From a virus, in IMG/VR virus record IMGVR_UViG_3300035698_000125, positions 1 to 24,999 of that record: a stretch of DNA of 24,999 nt. One strand, written 5' to 3'. This document shows, piece by piece, positions 5,976 through 24,738 of the stretch; positions within the stretch are counted from its first letter, which is position 1; every line of letters begins with the position of its first letter. Position numbers and translations under genes: made by a program. The notes beneath the pieces are model-generated. The model saw only the letters and a list, made by a program, of their open reading frames with translations. It was not told the origin of the DNA and made no database searches.

Positions 5976-6034
5976 TCCTCAAGATGTTACTAACAATAAT
6001 ACTAGCGACACAGTTACAAACGAAAGTACCCAAT

Positions 6035-7384
6035 ATGGCATATGGCTCAACAAAAAGTATATCTGACTCCATTCTAGCGGCTACTGATGGTGAGTCTATC
6101 CAAGAACAAATTGATGCATACATGCAGAGTTCTGCTTCAGGAACCACAGGTGATGGGCTTATAGCAGCTGCAACTATCAATAAAGATACAGATGCTGCTG
6201 TGTCAGCTATGCGTAAGAAGTCCTTAGGTGCACGAGAAAGCCAAGCTAAAGCACAGAAGGCTGTCGTTAACGATAAGCTTGCTAGTGTGGGTAGAGATTG
6301 GCTGACACTGATGCAGGGGGACGGGCAGGCTAACGCTTCTGAGATTTCAGAGAAGCGCTCTATTCTTCTGGCTGAAGTTGAAGACATTCCAACTACTGAA
6401 TTAACAGACGATCAATACTTCTTGCGTACAGGTAAGAAGCGCCCTGATTACGCTGATGACCCTGATGTATTTACAAAGGATGGCAGTGATAACATCTCTG
6501 GCTCTGGTGCAAGTCTCGCTGAGCGTTCAGGTGGGGTAATGAACTTTACAGCAGGTGATATAGACTTGAGTAAGTTTGTAGTGTTTGATGATAGTGGTGA
6601 TACAGGTAATGGCTTGATGAGTAGCCCTAGACCTAAAGTTAGGCCTGATAACGCTCCTGTAGTTACGTCTAACAGAGATCCTGTAAAAGTTGCCGTTGAT
6701 ACCACTACAACTAGTTCTAACGTTAAAAAGATACAACAAGCCTTAACTACTATGGGCTTTAAACCTAACGGTGTAGATGGTGCTATGGGCGGTGGAACAG
6801 CTAGAGCTTTAAGAAAGTTTCAAGCTGCAAACGACTTACCTATTACAGGAAAGCTAACTCAAGAAGTAGCAGATCTTTTAACCAACGGTACGTCCATTAC
6901 TTACCCCGACAGGCCTGTACCTTTTGCTGTACCAGAAGACATTGAAGATAATCTATTTGATATCTTTAAAGTAGAAGTTGGTTACATTGAAAGTAAAAAC
7001 AAATACAACATTAAAGGGGGGTCTGGTAATCATTATGATGGTAGATATCAGATGGGAGAAGCCGCAAAGAAAGATGCAGGTCGTGCTTTAGGTATATCTT
7101 TGAAACATGATGCAGCCTCTCGTAAGGCGTTTAGAGAGGATTCAGCCCTTCAAGACAAAGCATTTAAAGCCTATACAGAAATGAATCATACTCACCTGAC
7201 TAGGAACTCTGAGAAGTACAGGAATATGTCAGTAGAAGAGAAGCTTGGTATACTAGGCTACGCACATAACCAAGGGGCTACTGCTGCAGAAGAGTATTTG
7301 TTTACAGGTATTGTAGGAACAGATGCCAACGATACTAAAGGCACTAGATATACAGACGCTATTGCAAAGGCTTTAGGTAACTAA
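6035..7384 (+). CDS. Peptidoglycan hydrolase with PG-binding domain and lysozyme-like domain
   Basis: ATG 6035 (MAYGSTKSIS) is preferred because GAAAG lies 8 nt upstream. An in-frame ATG at 5984 would add 17 residues with no visible ribosome site. The 449-aa protein has a polar N-terminal region, then a PG_binding_1-type domain (about 227-281: NVKKIQQALTTMGFKPNGVD, ARALRKFQAANDLPITGKLT). The C-terminal lysozyme/transglycosylase-like domain starts with the candidate catalytic E319 in GYIESKNKYNIKGG and continues GRYQMGEAAKKDAGRALG. That Glu plus downstream Gly-x-Tyr-Gln pattern is typical of SLT/lysozyme-like folds. There is no convincing signal peptide, so it is either a virion-carried hydrolase or an endolysin released by a holin. 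The holin-like gene follows at a TAATG junction. Confidence 0.8.
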   Translation: MAYGSTKSISDSILAATDGESIQEQIDAYMQSSASGTTGDGLIAAATINKDTDAAVSAMRKKSLGARESQAKAQKAVVNDKLASVGRDWLTLMQGDGQANASEISEKRSILLAEVEDIPTTELTDDQYFLRTGKKRPDYADDPDVFTKDGSDNISGSGASLAERSGGVMNFTAGDIDLSKFVVFDDSGDTGNGLMSSPRPKVRPDNAPVVTSNRDPVKVAVDTTTTSSNVKKIQQALTTMGFKPNGVDGAMGGGTARALRKFQAANDLPITGKLTQEVADLLTNGTSITYPDRPVPFAVPEDIEDNLFDIFKVEVGYIESKNKYNIKGGSGNHYDGRYQMGEAAKKDAGRALGISLKHDAASRKAFREDSALQDKAFKAYTEMNHTHLTRNSEKYRNMSVEEKLGILGYAHNQGATAAEEYLFTGIVGTDANDTKGTRYTDAIAKALGN

Positions 7385-17819: not shown

Positions 17820-18262
17820 CGTTTTATCTTCTCATACTTAAGGGAGATACGATCTACTTTAACAACATCCCCTGTTTCTTTAAGCCAATCCTCAGGTATA
17901 ACCCTGTGTGCCCAAGTAAACCCTTTCTTATCACACCAATCTGAGTACGTAGACTTAGCACCCTTGTAAAGCTTAGCCTTAGCGTTACTAAATACAAACC
18001 TTATGTCTAACTCAGGGTGCTGCTTACGTACTTCTATATGTTTATTTCTATCATCAGAATCAAAGATACCTTTTGTCTCAATCAAGATGCCATTGTCTAA
18101 TTGAAAGTCAGGGGTGTAAGTGCGATAGTGTAAGTCTTCCCACTCTATCTTTAGCTGCTCATAGCGAACAGCCTTCTGACACTTAGCAAGCACAAGAGCA
18201 GTATCTTTTTCTAACCCACTCTTGTACTTACCTTTAGCGTGATACCGCTTAGTTTTCGGCAT
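17816..18262 (-). CDS. T7-type endonuclease I (Holliday junction resolvase)
   Basis: The 148-aa sequence closely follows T7 endonuclease I (gp3), a PD-(D/E)xK enzyme that cuts branched DNA, helps degrade host DNA and resolves packaging intermediates. All four catalytic residues are present: E18 in KSGLEKD, D52 in YTPDFQL, and E62 and K64 in ILIETKG. The diagnostic stretch is also kept: SDDRNKHIEVRKQHPELDIR, VFSNAKAKLYKG, and RVIPEDWLKE near the end. Active T7 enzyme is a domain-swapped dimer, and the length matches. The start lies 14 nt inside the end of the exonuclease gene, so the two nucleases are made together. Confidence 0.95.
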   Translation of the reverse strand: MPKTKRYHAKGKYKSGLEKDTALVLAKCQKAVRYEQLKIEWEDLHYRTYTPDFQLDNGILIETKGIFDSDDRNKHIEVRKQHPELDIRFVFSNAKAKLYKGAKSTYSDWCDKKGFTWAHRVIPEDWLKETGDVVKVDRISLKYEKIKR

Positions 18263-19100
18263 AGATGTATTCTACCATAGGCGGTGCTTTACTCCCTGTG
18301 TACACCTTAGAGGGTAGTTCTTTTAGTTCAGGCCAGCATTTCTTTTTGTGATCACACCATGAGCAAGTCTTACAAAGCTTAAGGTTACCACTAGCTTTCT
18401 TTCTGAATGTCTCTGGCACTGCCTCAAAGCAACGCTCAAATGGCTCATCGTTATTGATGTAGTCAACTGTACCTTTGATAGAGGCCATCACCTCTTCAAC
18501 ATCAGCAGTCTCAGCTGTTACATATTTGAATTGCCCATTCACTTTATTGATGACCCACCATCCACCAACATCCTTACCTGATGCAACAGCGTATCCAATA
18601 AGCTGAGATACATAACCGAAGTCATCAGAGTATGCGAGTGAATCATAGCTGGCAAACTTGTTGTCGTAACCGTATGGCGTAGTAGATTTAACATCATCTA
18701 CCTTACCATCCAGCACCATGTCATACTCACCGTTGATAGTAACATCACCAACCTTAAGGGCAACCTTATCGTTGTCCCCAAAGTCAACACCAGCTGCACG
18801 TAGTACCCCCTTGAACATAGCCTCAGTCCAATCTCCCATCAGCATGTTGAGCATGAAGGAGGTAGGCTTCTGTACATCTGTATCAGGGTTGTTCTTAGAG
18901 AACCACAGCTGACATCTAGGCCTGCCAATGTTTGACATACGTAGACGGAACTCATCACGAGGCCCACCATTGAACTGCTTGTTGAGTGCAGCAGCCACAT
19001 CCGTGGCTACTTGCTGTATTACTTCTTCACTCATGCTTGCCGTGCCATTGATAGCTGACCGCAAGAATGCGTGTACTGATATCTCAGCGGGGTGTATCAT
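18249..19100 (-). CDS. Cas4/RecB-like PD-(D/E)xK exonuclease with probable Fe-S cluster
   Basis: This 283-aa protein has the nuclease core GEYDMVLDGKVDDVKS (metal ligands D127 and D136, K138) followed by the RecB-family QxxxY motif (Q166 to Y170 in YVSQLIGY). Cysteines sit at C63 (RPRCQLWF) and in the C-terminal cluster C243, C246, C249, C255 (LCKTCSWCDHKKKCW). That arrangement is typical of the 4Fe-4S cluster that staples AddB- and Cas4-type exonucleases. It probably digests duplex ends during recombination or host DNA breakdown, in partnership with the endonuclease downstream and the putative ssDNA-binding protein upstream (ATGA overlap). It is not a CRISPR gene: no Cas1/Cas2 or array is present. 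Confidence 0.85.
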   Translation of the reverse strand: MIHPAEISVHAFLRSAINGTASMSEEVIQQVATDVAAALNKQFNGGPRDEFRLRMSNIGRPRCQLWFSKNNPDTDVQKPTSFMLNMLMGDWTEAMFKGVLRAAGVDFGDNDKVALKVGDVTINGEYDMVLDGKVDDVKSTTPYGYDNKFASYDSLAYSDDFGYVSQLIGYAVASGKDVGGWWVINKVNGQFKYVTAETADVEEVMASIKGTVDYINNDEPFERCFEAVPETFRKKASGNLKLCKTCSWCDHKKKCWPELKELPSKVYTGSKAPPMVEYIYAEN

Positions 19101-19963
19101 CCCTCGAACTCTCGTACTTCTACGATAGACCCTACCATTGCAGCATCAGCATCAGACAGATTACCTATAGACCCTTCATCATGCTTACCTTCGATCCAAT
19201 TGTTAGTGCCTTTGATCCATTCAATGAAGTCTTTCAAGATTTCACTATCCGTTATACCATAGGGTACTTGCTCACCCAAGGAAGGTACAATGATAGCGTA
19301 CTTACCACCTGATGGGAGGTCACGCTTAGCACTACCTAACTTAAGGGTATGCTCGACAGGGGTAAACTTCTTGCTTACGATCTGACTAATGGCTGCATCA
19401 ACAGCCTTCATGGATTCATTGTTCTTCACATCCATTACGAATGGAAGTTCATGCCCTGCATCAGTGATAGGGTTACCCATATCATCAGTAGGTTTTTCCA
19501 ATTTAAGTACACCAAGCATTACTCGTACTCGCTTGACGCCACGAATGATACTCTTCATTTCCTCAGGTAAGGATTGAAAGTCTTTGATGTAACCTGATGG
19601 ACGCCCAAGATTAAAGCCACCCGTAGTATCCTTTAGGTCTACGTTAAGGTTGGGTGCCAGCAATGTCTTATGCATAGTCTTACTATCAGCATCCCATCGT
19701 TGCCACTGGTGACGTTGTGAGAAGATACGTACTGATAGTGTCTTACTGTACAGTATCTCACCATCAGCCATAGTAATCTTATAGGCACCAACAGGAACCT
19801 TGATGTGCTCATCTCCATCATTGTCTGTTACAGTTAACGCTGAGTGGATTTGATTCACTCGTGCTAGTGTAGAGTGAGAGGATGTACCACCCCCACCAGT
19901 GTTGATGCCCATTGCTTCAGCTAGGGACATACCCTCTACACTAAGTGCTACTTCTGTGTTCAT
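19097..19963 (-). CDS. Candidate single-stranded DNA-binding protein of the replication module
   Basis: No motif names this 288-aa protein. It has a Gly/Ser-rich N-terminus (NTGGGGTSSHSTLARVNQIH) followed by a beta-rich region (HIKVPVGAYKITMADGEIL, KTLSVRIFSQRHQWQRWDAD). Lys/Arg/aromatic patches and a second alpha/beta region come next (SIIRGVKRVRVMLGVLKLEK, GKYAIIVPSLGEQVPYG). The order PolA, this gene, exonuclease, endonuclease I is where T7-like phages carry their ssDNA-binding protein (gp2.5 next to endonuclease I), and an aromatic/basic beta-rich protein fits. The usual acidic C-terminal tail is only weakly present (IVEVREFEG). A clear AAAGGAT site precedes ATG 19963. The functional call is inference from position. 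Confidence 0.5.
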   Translation of the reverse strand: MNTEVALSVEGMSLAEAMGINTGGGGTSSHSTLARVNQIHSALTVTDNDGDEHIKVPVGAYKITMADGEILYSKTLSVRIFSQRHQWQRWDADSKTMHKTLLAPNLNVDLKDTTGGFNLGRPSGYIKDFQSLPEEMKSIIRGVKRVRVMLGVLKLEKPTDDMGNPITDAGHELPFVMDVKNNESMKAVDAAISQIVSKKFTPVEHTLKLGSAKRDLPSGGKYAIIVPSLGEQVPYGITDSEILKDFIEWIKGTNNWIEGKHDEGSIGNLSDADAAMVGSIVEVREFEG

Positions 19964-20012: not shown

Positions 20013-22091
20013 TCATACGTCCTTGGTGTCAAGCCAGTTAGGCCCGATTTTTGCCTCTAAAAGTAACGGAATATTCATCTTAACTTTGTAGTTGTCGTAG
20101 ATGATTTGATGTAGGTCCATGTTCATGGAGTTAATGATCTCTATTATCTGATCCTTCTCGTAAGGGTGTATGTCTATGACCATTGAATCATGTACACTGT
20201 TGACCAGCTTAGACCGCATAGGCATGAGCCTACTCTCCATCTCAACCAGCACGACAGGTACGATATCTCCAGTAGCAAACCCCTGCACTGGGTAGTTCTT
20301 TATCATAGTAAAGTTTGTTGGTAGTCCGTTTGGCCTCCTCTCTGTACCGGGGAAAGCGTACTGCCTGCCCCCCTCATTAGTAATCTTCTGGTAACGTATG
20401 GCAGCGTCACCTAACTTCTTATGCCATGCAGCAATACCCTCGTACTTCTCAATGAAGTGATGGTAGTACGCTGCCTCTGCTGGGCTACGCCCATAACCTG
20501 TAGCGCCAAACAGGGGTGCGAAGGTATGTTCCTTTGCTTCTTGCCGGGTAGTTGTCTGGCCTGCATCAGTGATAACCTTTGCAGTGTAGCTGTGTACATC
20601 AAACCCTGTGTTGATCTCTGTCATAGCTAACGTATCCTGACTAAGGTATGCAGCTACACGAAATTCTAGCTGGGCAAAGTCGGCTTCCATTATGTACCCA
20701 CCATCCCAACGACTTACAAACACACGCTTCACTGGGAAAGTACCACCACGTGGCATGTTCTGCATGTTGGGATTGCGTCCAGAGAACCTACCTGTGCTAG
20801 TGATGTGCTGTGTAAGACCCACGTGAAGTATCCCATCATCCTTTGTGTGTACTGATATGCCCTCAACGAATGAGGATAGGTAACTTGATATAGCAGACAG
20901 ACGTTTGAGATCCTTAAGGAAATCTAATGCACTGTCCATGTTGTTAGCCTTAGCTGTAGACATGAGAGAAGATAGATTATCTTTACCTGTACTAAAGCCA
21001 TTGGCACTTACCCATTTCTTACTAGGAGGCATGAACCCCAGCCCCGCCAACTCGTTGGACTGCTTGAGTTGATACCCTCTTGAGTCACAGGCCTTACACT
21101 TGTTAGGGCGTGAGAACTTTGTCCCATCTTTCTTGGTACGATAGACACTACCAACCCCACTACAATCAGGGCAGGTGAAAGCGGAGGTCTTAAGTACCAT
21201 TGTTGTGTTCGCATTGACTGCATCCCTATACTCTTTGTCTGTGTTAGTGTGTTCAAATAGCTGCACCCATTCCTTCTTGTTGACCAGCTTACGACTGTAC
21301 ACTACCTCAGACATCTGCGCTGGGCTGTTAAGGTTTACAGGTGTATCACCCATAAGGTTACGTACCTTGACCTGTAAGCGCCCCTCAATGTCAGCCTTCT
21401 CTTGCTCAAACTCAGTACGCACTGCATCCAATACAGTTAAGTCTACCTTGATACCAGATGAATACATACGAGATAGCGTTAGGCATACCTTGAATGTAAT
21501 GTCACGTATGTTGATAAGAGATTCTGAATCAGGCTTAGCGTAGTCTTCTTGTAACGCTACGTACAATGCACGTGTGGTAGATAGGTCACACTGTAAGTAA
21601 TAGGTAAGCTCATTAAGCGGTATCTCGCTGGTGTTGTATCCTTCCTTAAAGTATTTCTTTAGAGTGTCATCCTTCTGGAACTCTAAGTTTCGGCGTTGTG
21701 CACAGTTATCTAGGCTGAGAGACTTCTTCTTGAAGGCCCCAGTGTTTGTCATCTCTATGTGATTGCCACGCATCAAGACGTATTCAGCTAACATAGTGTC
21801 GTATATGGCACCCTTATACTTGAAGCCACTCTCCCATAGCCACGGCATGTCATGCTGTGCATTGTGTAGTATCAATAGGGTAGTCGCATCTAACTTAGAT
21901 TGTAGTTGCTTGGCTTGTGAGCCATCATAGTCATTAGCTTCTGCATGATCGAAGTTATATATGTCCTGCTTACCTGACACAACTTCCTGCACACCTACCT
22001 GCACAAGCTTATTGGTTGCCTCGAAAGGATCGAGGTGCATCTTGCCACCCCTGTGTGTGACTGTGTTCTCTACATCAAGAACTAATTCCAT
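20013..22091 (-). CDS. polA: Family A DNA polymerase with 3'-5' exonuclease and DnaJ-like zinc-finger insert
   Basis: This 692-aa replicative polymerase has an exonuclease domain with ExoI D6/E8 (LVLDVENT), ExoII N77/D81 (LHNAQHDM) and ExoIII Y165/D169 (YYLQCDL). Residues 305-340 insert a zinc-finger-like segment: C307, C310 in CPDCSGVGSVY, and C332, C335 in CKACDSRGY, the DnaJ CxxCxGxG type. Polymerase motifs follow: motif A D471/E476 (ADFAQLEFRVA), motif B R516, K520, F524 (TRQEAKEHTFAPLFG) and motif C H634/D635 (SVHDSMVI). The residue equivalent to E. coli Phe762 is Phe, and Tyr766 is replaced by Phe (F528). An exonuclease-DnaJ-polymerase order was described for SAR116 phage HMO-2011. It lacks a 5'-3' exonuclease domain, as in T7. 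Confidence 0.95.
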   Translation of the reverse strand: MELVLDVENTVTHRGGKMHLDPFEATNKLVQVGVQEVVSGKQDIYNFDHAEANDYDGSQAKQLQSKLDATTLLILHNAQHDMPWLWESGFKYKGAIYDTMLAEYVLMRGNHIEMTNTGAFKKKSLSLDNCAQRRNLEFQKDDTLKKYFKEGYNTSEIPLNELTYYLQCDLSTTRALYVALQEDYAKPDSESLINIRDITFKVCLTLSRMYSSGIKVDLTVLDAVRTEFEQEKADIEGRLQVKVRNLMGDTPVNLNSPAQMSEVVYSRKLVNKKEWVQLFEHTNTDKEYRDAVNANTTMVLKTSAFTCPDCSGVGSVYRTKKDGTKFSRPNKCKACDSRGYQLKQSNELAGLGFMPPSKKWVSANGFSTGKDNLSSLMSTAKANNMDSALDFLKDLKRLSAISSYLSSFVEGISVHTKDDGILHVGLTQHITSTGRFSGRNPNMQNMPRGGTFPVKRVFVSRWDGGYIMEADFAQLEFRVAAYLSQDTLAMTEINTGFDVHSYTAKVITDAGQTTTRQEAKEHTFAPLFGATGYGRSPAEAAYYHHFIEKYEGIAAWHKKLGDAAIRYQKITNEGGRQYAFPGTERRPNGLPTNFTMIKNYPVQGFATGDIVPVVLVEMESRLMPMRSKLVNSVHDSMVIDIHPYEKDQIIEIINSMNMDLHQIIYDNYKVKMNIPLLLEAKIGPNWLDTKDV

Positions 22092-22105: not shown

Positions 22106-23338
22106 CTATGCTAAGTACTGTGCCCTAGCTCCATCCAATTCACACGTTACCTTACCGTGCCACCCTCCCTTAAGCTTATTCTTTGCAATGATCAAGTACC
22201 TTTGTGAATCTACTGTGTCATCCTCTTTTGCCTCAAGCATAGGGTTCTTACTAATCAGTACCATGAGGTCAGCTTCCGCTGCCTTGCCTGTCTTACTACC
22301 TTCCAGCATAGATTGATCTACATTTATCTTACCTTCAGCATCAGCTGATAGCTGGGACATCCATATCATTGCACAGTTGTACTGCTTGGCTATGTTACGT
22401 GCATGGATGGCAGCATTCTTAAGGTACACATCTGTCTTGTCACTGTTCTTAACAGCAAACTTATCACCCATGTCCAACACTACAATGTCAGGCTTGTAAG
22501 CCTTGATGATAGCCTCAACCCACGCCATGTCCTTACCTGTACTGTCATACAGATTGATCTGATCACGTACTGGTTGGTAGCGTGATGCAGCTAAGGCATA
22601 GTTACCCTTGACCTCCTCCATAGATAGGGATGATGCAGCACTAAGGTAACGTGCACCCACCCGTTCATAAGCTTCCTCGTTGCAGAGGATGAGACACTTA
22701 GCACCCTGAGATGCAAAGCCACCCGGCGCAGCCAACAAGGATGCATGGAAGGATGTCTTACCTGTGTTAGGACGTGCCCCTACTATGATCAAGTGACCAC
22801 CACTGATACCCTCTACCCTACGTGTGAGGCTAGGGATGTTAAACTTCCATTGTGATTGGATATCATTGGACTTGAGTAGGTGATCAATAGATATGTCACC
22901 GAAGTCTAACTTAAGGTTAGGGGTGAAGTCATCCTGATACATCTGCAATAGATTGCGTACAGGCTCAAGGCTATCCAATGATCCGTTAACGTAGTCGAAC
23001 CCTATGTTGGCAAGCTTGTTACCTAGTACCTGTTGGAATAGTTTAGACAGTACCTCATCAGCTATGTCCTTGTTCATAGATTCTTCACGAGACACACGCT
23101 TGAATAGATCATTGTACACCTGCTTGTTAGCAGTGGTCATCGTGGTGTTGTGAGCAAAGAACAATGCCTCAAGCTCAGATGCAGTTAAGGTACGTTCATA
23201 TGTATTCATTGCGTAGTCTAGTGTCTGCTTAATCTTACGTACATCTTTACTGAACAACTCATCAGGGCAACGTATACCCTTGTTGTTGTCATAGAACTCC
23301 TTGTCCATAAGAGTTCTTATTAAGGCTAATTCCATCAT
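22106..23338 (-). CDS. DnaB-family replicative helicase
   Basis: The 410-aa protein has a helical N-terminal domain (1-140, DnaB-N-like) and a RecA-fold motor. Motifs: Walker A GARPNTGKTSF (K194, T195), the post-Walker CNEE (220-222), Walker B DIVVLDMGD (D289), motif H3 IWMSQLSADA (Q329), and KNKLKGG near the C-terminus, as in DnaB and T7 gp4. No zinc-binding or TOPRIM primase domain is attached, so priming must come from elsewhere (host DnaG or a phage gene outside the window). Two consecutive ATGs (23338, 23335) can serve as the start; the first overlaps the previous stop (ATGA). It probably unwinds DNA for the PolA polymerase encoded 14 bp downstream. Confidence 0.9.
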   Translation of the reverse strand: MMELALIRTLMDKEFYDNNKGIRCPDELFSKDVRKIKQTLDYAMNTYERTLTASELEALFFAHNTTMTTANKQVYNDLFKRVSREESMNKDIADEVLSKLFQQVLGNKLANIGFDYVNGSLDSLEPVRNLLQMYQDDFTPNLKLDFGDISIDHLLKSNDIQSQWKFNIPSLTRRVEGISGGHLIIVGARPNTGKTSFHASLLAAPGGFASQGAKCLILCNEEAYERVGARYLSAASSLSMEEVKGNYALAASRYQPVRDQINLYDSTGKDMAWVEAIIKAYKPDIVVLDMGDKFAVKNSDKTDVYLKNAAIHARNIAKQYNCAMIWMSQLSADAEGKINVDQSMLEGSKTGKAAEADLMVLISKNPMLEAKEDDTVDSQRYLIIAKNKLKGGWHGKVTCELDGARAQYLA

Positions 23339-24054: not shown

Positions 24055-24738
24055 TTAAGCATGGCATCCTTCAAGTGCCTCCCATGATACAGGAAATAGT
24101 TTCAACATTACTTTGTCAACACCAAGGGCTACCTGTTTAGTCTCGTGTTGGGTGTCGGGTGTAATCCTTAGCCTACACATATCAGCGAAGGCATCAAGGC
24201 TACCTGACCAGTACCACTCAGTCATTGTGCTTTGTGGTAAGACCATACGTGCTTGCTCTGGTGCTACCCCTGACTTCAGTAAGGCTTTGTAAGCGCACAG
24301 TGCCTCGTAAGGGCTGTCTGACACGATGGCGGTATCTAGTGTACCTAGATTGACCTCACCCTCACTACCCTGCTTCTTGTCAGCACTACGCCCACGCCAT
24401 AGATCAGGCACATAGAACTCAGGCTCATCATCTACATACCTACGGCTGATCTCATTCCATCGTAGGAACTTATGCTTGACTAGCTGTCGTGCCACAAACA
24501 CTGGAGCCTTGACATGGAAGGATGCAAAGCAATGTCCAAATGGACTATAATGGCTATGATTGGCTAGGTATTGGATTAGCTTTACATCACGGCTTGATAG
24601 TGCTTCTTCTGTTGCTTCACCTGAGTGGAAACCTTTTGTCAATGTGACGTACTCAGACTTCTTACCAAAACTAACCCTCGCTGCATTAACTACAGTCAGG
24701 TCAGTACCCATGTGATCTACGTATGTTACATCAATCAA
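24055..24738 (-). CDS. thyX: Flavin-dependent thymidylate synthase ThyX
   Basis: This 227-aa enzyme methylates dUMP to dTMP using FAD, NADPH and methylenetetrahydrofolate (EC 2.1.1.148). The ThyX motif RHRx7S is present in variant form as K88-H89-K90 to S98, within KHKFLRWNEISRRYVDDEPE. Other family features: NAARVSFGK near the N-terminus, HSHYSPFGHCFASFHVKAPV (61-80), VFVARQLVKHK, and QARMVLPQSTMTEWYWSGSL towards the C-terminus. Lys replacing Arg in the motif occurs in other phage ThyX proteins. Length is normal for the family. It overlaps the upstream gene by 8 bases and lies in the same operon as RNR and MazG, giving the phage its own dTTP supply. Confidence 0.95.
   Translation of the reverse strand: MIDVTYVDHMGTDLTVVNAARVSFGKKSEYVTLTKGFHSGEATEEALSSRDVKLIQYLANHSHYSPFGHCFASFHVKAPVFVARQLVKHKFLRWNEISRRYVDDEPEFYVPDLWRGRSADKKQGSEGEVNLGTLDTAIVSDSPYEALCAYKALLKSGVAPEQARMVLPQSTMTEWYWSGSLDAFADMCRLRITPDTQHETKQVALGVDKVMLKLFPVSWEALEGCHA

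Follow-up and report, generated by a model that had tools for sequence, protein, structure and literature searches.

What is a predicted DnaJ-type zinc finger doing in the DNA polymerase of a marine virus, and where in the enzyme does it sit? We asked this of a 24,999-base IMG/VR virus record (the window, which is the whole stretch of DNA that we analyzed). A "partial DnaJ central domain" in HMO-2011-type polymerases is described in the accessible parts of PMC9038755, PMC6918029, and PMC8528129. Two of these papers use the domain as a criterion for the group, and one of them counts it in seven new isolates and in 207 metagenomic genomes. The record for the HMO-2011 polymerase is also annotated with PF00684. 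The initial annotation of the window was thus right that the finger had been reported for HMO-2011 and that it marks a lineage. Because the partial DnaJ domain has already been published as a group marker, the feature itself is known, and what we add is its placement in the thumb and the insertion slot that it shares with other polymerases. We found no report of the finger's thumb position or of a tested function for it in the open-licence PMC literature: the words "thumb" and "processivity" are both absent from PMC9038755, and the accessible parts of a jumbo-phage survey contain nothing on the finger.

The polymerase and its genomic context

Judged by its genes, the window comes from an HMO-2011-type marine podovirus, of whose genome it is a fragment. 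The polymerase gene and its neighbors are:

20013..22091, minus strand: family A DNA polymerase gene, 692 amino acids, intact (open reading frame; PF00476, E = 3.9e-44; PF01612, E = 3.5e-5)
21546..22001, minus strand: 3'-5' exonuclease domain, amino acids 31-182 (PF01612)
20031..21026, minus strand: polymerase domain, best Pfam stretch, amino acids 356-687 (DNA_pol_A, in two stretches at E up to 1)
22106..23338, minus strand: DnaB-like helicase, directly upstream of the polymerase gene and 61% identical to the HMO-2011 helicase
18249..19963, minus strand: two genes downstream of the polymerase, syntenic with HMO-2011 gp13 (33%) and gp14 (53%, Cas4-type exonuclease family)

The window's polymerase shares 66.5% identity with its counterpart in Roseobacter phage CRP-207. 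HMO-2011-type polymerases are defined as homologs at at least 25% identity over 80% of the length, which includes the window's polymerase (55.2% identity to HMO-2011's over 100% of the length). Membership is also judged by an HMO-2011-like order of replication genes, and the window has the same order as HMO-2011: helicase, polymerase, gp13, gp14, endonuclease I (59%), and gp17 (47%). There was no real match to gp16, the primase, or the integrase of HMO-2011 within the 24,999-base window. The primase is called core to the group in the accessible part of PMC9038755. A gene upstream of the helicase encodes a ThyX thymidylate synthase (24055-24738), so with no primase match in the window, the primase may lie beyond this fragment.

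We also tried two proteins from the structural region. One resembles proteins of HMO-2011-type phages across its last two thirds. The other (466 amino acids, 5984-7384) matches only large Synechococcus phages: its C-terminal third is 42-48% identical to proteins from five Synechococcus phage records, two of which are annotated as peptidase or peptidase M23, and it had no match to an HMO-2011-type phage at E = 1e-5.

Conservation of the zinc-finger motif

The four cysteines (C307, C310, C332, and C335) are where the initial annotation put them, as 21072-21173 on the minus strand encodes amino acids 307-340, and the two motifs have the forms that were given for them (CPDCSGVG is CxxCxGxG and CKACDSRG is CxxCxxxG). 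These parts of the finger are:

21150..21173, minus strand: knuckle 1, CPDCSGVG, amino acids 307-314 (C307, C310, G312, and G314)
21099..21149, minus strand: basic stretch between the knuckles, amino acids 315-331 (K/R at 318, 320, and 331 nearly fixed; many CRP-738-like members have 12 to 13 more residues here)
21075..21098, minus strand: knuckle 2, CKACDSRG, amino acids 332-339 (C332, C335, and G339)

The 692 amino acids of the polymerase contain no other CxxC pairs. Of 20,000 shuffles of the polymerase, two contained a loose CxxC..CxxC pair and none had the strict pattern, which together with the conservation described below rules out a chance motif.

Sequences came from phage records, from one scan of cellular genomes, and from five scans of viral contigs. 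A scan kept at most its best 80 loci, so our counts apply to relatives close to the queries and do not represent a random sample. A protein was obtained from 362 loci, and 257 proteins remained after we removed identical sequences and those that cover only part of the insert. (Split polymerases were excluded from the 257 or covered in part, and were examined separately.) We then reduced 248 full-length proteins plus the window's to 60 representatives under 88% identity. A second alignment of 59 rows excludes the phage-record loci L081-L086 and has five rows added. Incidentally to these scans, HMO-2011-type contigs of 55,371 and 62,825 bases were each present, with equal coordinates, in two unrelated MAGs; such pairs are a sign that reference genome bins are contaminated with HMO-2011-type phages.

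All seven knuckle residues (C307, C310, G312, G314, C332, C335, and G339) are identical in 60/60 representatives, and they are also invariant in the 59-row alignment. The polymerase's remaining three cysteines (130, 168, and 203) vary among the 60 representatives. Among the matches listed, 251 of the 257 distinct proteins that cover the insert have both CxxC pairs; 241 of these have the strict pattern, and the other ten lack the glycine at 314. (In a separate sequence set, the count of CxxC carriers was 269 of 271.) The six proteins without the CxxC pairs are from Saratov-12, H4/4, 526E57-1, phiV141, Konnatiik, and RHph_X3_9. All six are outside the HMO-2011 group and are at most 28% identical to the group queries. 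Absence of the insert from close relatives, which the initial annotation had named as one of two results that would count against it, was therefore not seen. A scan with the H4/4 polymerase as the query recovered only H4/4 itself, and when the arm alone was compared to phages, there was no match outside the group better than E = 0.6.

The second motif is less uniform. Among the matches listed, it has the form CxxCxGxG in 161 of 249 full-length proteins, including HMO-2011 itself, and CxxCxxxG in the other 88. The published criterion of two CXXCXGXG motifs, taken to the letter, does not hold for motif 2 of the window, which has serine in place of the first glycine. The isolate CRP-207 (CKDCDTRG) deviates in the same way as the window (CKACDSRG), as do the 88 proteins, so the criterion as its authors apply it admits the window.

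The spacing of the knuckles also varies: among the matches listed, 189 proteins have a spacing of 21 residues and 62 a spacing of 33-34. These 62 of the 251 are CRP-738-like, and their linker is longer by 12-13 residues, most of them basic. (The extra residues are absent from two loci, L280 and L285, on the same branch as the CRP-738-like proteins.) The length variants among the CRP-738-like proteins are a natural series for testing the length of the arm.

The finger lies within the thumb

The initial annotation placed the finger between the exonuclease and polymerase domains, as do the published descriptions in their accessible parts. Our alignments do not agree with this: they put the insert inside the thumb of the polymerase domain, at the H1-H2 loop, and we replaced the inter-domain position with this one. 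The relevant features are:

21297..21335, minus strand: thumb motif NLNS..QM and helix, amino acids 253-265 (by alignments to NLSS 579 of E. coli Pol I and FNLNS 482-486 of Taq; helix 257-265 in the model)
20997..21293, minus strand: whole thumb insert, amino acids 267-365 (slot by alignments, secondary structure from the model)

The insert is 99 amino acids long where E. coli has about 14. For the first border, profile and multiple alignments both place NLNS (253-256) opposite NLSS at 579 of E. coli Pol I. For the second border, FST (366-368) aligns with PST 607 of Pol I in a multiple alignment, with the short-looped polymerase of StenR_269 as a bridge; in the global profile alignment to E. 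coli Pol I, which agrees on the first border, the second is unaligned and gapped. The second border therefore rests on the multiple alignment, the StenR_269 bridge, and alignments to other phages.

In Taq, the borders of the slot are FNLNS (482-486) and RST (512-514), so Taq E507 is within the slot. E507 lies in the H1-H2 loop of the thumb, near the phosphate that links nucleotides 6 and 7 of the primer, and in the E507K mutant the Kd for primed DNA falls about 90-fold, from 102 to 1.1 nM, with no change in processivity (20 nt for both enzymes; accessible part of PMC4132270). The contacts to the primer in Taq include E507 and S515 (accessible part of PMC6345897). By these alignments, the finger is in the thumb loop that is equivalent to Taq's H1-H2 loop, which touches the primer duplex.

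T7 gp5, another podoviral family A polymerase, likewise has a large basic thumb insert, the thioredoxin-binding domain, which is located between helices H and H1. T7 needs thioredoxin, whereas the window's insert would have zinc ligands instead. In simulations, exposed lysines and arginines of the T7 domain touch the DNA backbone, and its DNA-contact residues run from K268 to E330 (accessible part of PMC5984650). In T7, FNPSS at 334 is the equivalent motif, and the loop that follows it at the slot is short. (The global alignment to T7 gp5 is poor in the thumb.) The T7 contact segment precedes FNPSS, while the window's insert follows the equivalent NLNS. This position, after the thumb NS motif and not before it, excludes a T7-like thioredoxin segment. 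Nevertheless, the comparison to the thioredoxin-binding loop in the initial annotation was apt: the two inserts are in the same subdomain, on opposite sides of the same thumb helix.

Other podoviral polymerases have inserts in the same slot

We compared the slot in ten phage polymerases from outside the group. It holds 21 residues in StenR_269 and 51-138 amino acids in the other nine, which are those of Foturvirus H4/4, phiV141, Konnatiik, RHph_X3_9, 526E57-1, Saratov-12/ICP2, VP41s3, MEP401, and ctOsX528. None of the ten has a CxxC pair in the slot; the nine long inserts have zero to two lone cysteines there. By eye, five of these inserts end in the same kind of tail as the window's, G[YF]....W...[YF]S (GF..P..KW..FS in the window). 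Several of them also have a Gly/Lys-rich stretch that the multiple alignment places opposite the basic stretch of the finger, which is suggestive only. As nine of ten related polymerases have inserts without CxxC pairs in this slot, the finger seems to be the form that a wider thumb insert takes in the HMO-2011 group. From these sequences, the insert appears to be more widespread than the finger, and the cysteines look like a lineage-specific staple of its tip.

A single origin of the finger is compatible with the tree that we built from 71 rows with the insert columns removed. One change suffices on this tree, with weak support (39/89; 38% of 200 bootstrap trees) at a place where long branches meet.

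Five of the polymerase genes from outside the group (Saratov-12, ICP2, VP41s3, MEP401, and ctOsX528) are split over two reading frames. The first of the two parts stops right after the conserved PNLQN motif in three of them (Saratov-12, ICP2, and VP41s3). Between the halves there is an open reading frame for an HNH endonuclease in ICP2 (where the gene is annotated as joined), small open reading frames in VP41s3, MEP401, and ctOsX528, and nothing much in Saratov-12.

Predicted fold and similarity to DnaJ

The AlphaFold 2 (AF2) model of the whole polymerase has a mean pLDDT of 90.7 and a pTM of 0.83. It matches the Bst, Klenow, and Taq polymerases end to end (Z about 29-33; the best is Bst Pol I, Z = 33.0), and these searches with the whole model are uninformative about the insert alone. 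The finger within the insert is:

21048..21206, minus strand: zinc-finger arm proper, amino acids 296-348 (AF2 model, pLDDT 83-92 per block over amino acids 301-350)

In the model, the insert consists of two helices (272-281 and 285-295), a two-stranded stalk (300-306 and 340-348) with the two putative zinc knuckles between its strands, and a return loop. We infer from this predicted fold that the four cysteines are co-located. Folded alone, the arm has four strands with moderate scores (mean pLDDT 73.5, pTM 0.37). The strands predicted in both models are consistent with two knuckles carried on beta hairpins, as a DnaJ-type finger would have.

Several comparisons favor the initial annotation's reading of a DnaJ-type finger. 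A profile of the insert matches the cysteine-rich domain of E. coli DnaJ (1exk; E = 3.1e-5), spanning motifs 2-3 of DnaJ. Structure matches to the isolated insert are mostly DnaJ-type fingers, and are weak (Z of 4.0 or less; Foldseek E of 0.2 or worse for the isolated arm). They include DnaJA2, DnaJ, anti-TRAP, UvrA, BSD2, and lambda Q; the fingers of the last four belong with the DnaJ-type knuckles. (One of the 20 structure matches to the arm, 8xku_R, has no type assignment.) The likeness to the lambda Q antiterminator, anti-TRAP, UvrA, and BSD2 is weak in structure or profile, and those proteins are not polymerases. Across relatives, 57 of 59 aligned proteins give a DnaJ match at E up to 1, the best being 2.8e-5.

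The resemblance is to part of DnaJ. The polymerase finger and DnaJ motifs 2-3 are alike in having two CxxC knuckles at similar spacing, but the polymerase has two such motifs instead of four, a basic linker, and no J domain. Pfam's DnaJ central domain (PF00684) matches at amino acids 302-343 with 18.5 bits (E = 0.0025), which does not reach the gathering score of 32.7, and none of the records for 10 relatives exceeds this cut-off either. No J-domain family is among the polymerase's Pfam matches at E up to 1. The two motifs, the sub-threshold score, and the lack of a J domain exclude a fusion to full DnaJ or to a J domain. With two motifs in place of four, one zinc site is expected, where DnaJ has two.

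A basic arm that may clamp the primer duplex

The arm is basic. Across 59 proteins, the mean net charge of the arm (amino acids 294-350 and their equivalents) is +8.2, with a range of 2 to 13, as compared to -9.2 for the remainder of each protein. In 56 of the 59, the arm is overlapped by the most basic segment of its length. Lysine or arginine is kept at 301 in 58/59 proteins, at 318 in 58/59, at 320 in 59/59, and at 331 in 55/59. (At 318 it is 60/60 in the representative set, which is a different alignment.)

We propose, at a probability of roughly 45%, that a zinc-stapled basic arm acts as a clamp on the duplex behind the primer end. The insert would be a single-zinc DnaJ-type finger, equivalent to motifs 2 and 3 of DnaJ, that caps a stalk grown out of the H1-H2 loop of the thumb. 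Zinc would bind the two knuckles together, and if it does so, then the conserved lysines and arginines between and beside the knuckles would form a rigid basic arm. This arm would be positioned where the tip of the thumb meets the duplex behind the primer end. By clamping the duplex it would raise the affinity for DNA, and perhaps processivity, without a host factor. We consider this the most likely role because the slot touches primed DNA in Taq, because one added lysine there tightens binding by ~90-fold, and because the arm is basic (and rigid if zinc is bound). T7 achieves something similar from the opposite side of the helix by means of a host protein. Since E507K in Taq raises affinity but not processivity, the clamp may alter affinity only.

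Several observations argue against the clamp. The charge of the window's own arm is a modest +6 (the whole protein is at -3), and the arm is more basic than every non-overlapping segment in only 33 of the 59 proteins. Of the ten slot inserts without CxxC pairs, three have a charge of 0 or -2. Also, a relative of gp13 accompanies the polymerase, which leans towards a docking role.

Alternative roles for the finger

The initial annotation suggested that the finger may hold a processivity or partner-binding site, and we treat both as putative roles. As a partner-binding site, the finger would dock a phage replication protein such as the DnaB-like helicase, the primase, or the product of gp13 or gp14. 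We see this as possible but less probable than the clamp. Synteny with HMO-2011 covers the helicase, the polymerase, gp13, gp14, and endonuclease I, although conserved neighbors need not bind one another. The gp13-like gene (19097-19963) has no significant Pfam or PHROG family, and its product may be a single-stranded DNA-binding protein (SSB) or an accessory replication protein. By tblastn, it matches 8 of 50,697 phage records, with no match in HTVC033P or CRP-3, which we had counted as an argument against docking. This argument was overturned when a search with an iterated profile found relatives in most loci of all four groups: within the best 80 loci per scan, and with flanks cut in many, a gp13 relative is near the polymerase in 233 of 276 loci (76/80, 64/80, 29/36, and 64/80 by group). 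This made docking somewhat more probable in our estimate, and the clamp somewhat less. The last 30 residues of the gp13 product have a net charge of -5 (by eye) and could meet the basic arm, while the tail of the helicase is about neutral (by eye). In T7, the helicase binds the thioredoxin-binding domain. So does the T7 SSB (accessible part of PMC7699545). Against docking, the slot coincides with a loop that contacts DNA.

The other roles that we considered seem less likely still. Zinc might be a purely structural staple that keeps a long thumb insert folded, with no separate partner. With its cysteines and glycines set aside, the insert varies to much the same degree as the protein at large (51% vs. 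55% mean column identity), and relatives manage without CxxC pairs in the same slot; but a staple alone needs none of the basic residues at 301, 318, 320, and 331, which are kept in 55 to 59 of 59 proteins, so we think this unlikely. It is rather improbable that the insert tunes lesion bypass, strand displacement, or the use of RNA primers, in the way that thumb insertion 1 serves translesion synthesis by plant organellar polymerases; insertions 1 and 2 of those enzymes are in the thumb and are thought to be poised on duplex DNA (accessible part of PMC7699545). Least likely of all is a DnaJ-like role, in which the finger recruits host DnaK or acts as a thiol reductase. The accessible part of PMC9038755 recalls the role of DnaJ in lambda replication, and the sequence match covers motifs 2-3 of DnaJ. 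However, half of a DnaJ finger with no J domain, a score well short of Pfam's gathering threshold, and an insert that is fixed within the thumb all make a chaperone function unlikely.

Implications for HMO-2011-type phages

The architecture, the knuckles, and largely the gene order of the window are those of HMO-2011, and placing the finger in the thumb turns a marker for this group into a testable question about DNA affinity or processivity. The arm might be graftable into Pol I or Taq. To judge from titles in a reference list, grafting of this kind has been done with segments from T7 and T3. If the proposed function fails, the finger's use as a marker still stands. More tentatively than for the clamp itself, we suggest that podoviral family A polymerases have an insertion slot in common at the H1-H2 thumb loop, which HMO-2011-type phages, a dominant marine group, may have made into a zinc-stapled, intrinsic clamp. 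This would be a route to binding the duplex tightly that is separate from T7's thioredoxin-dependent insert across the same thumb helix.
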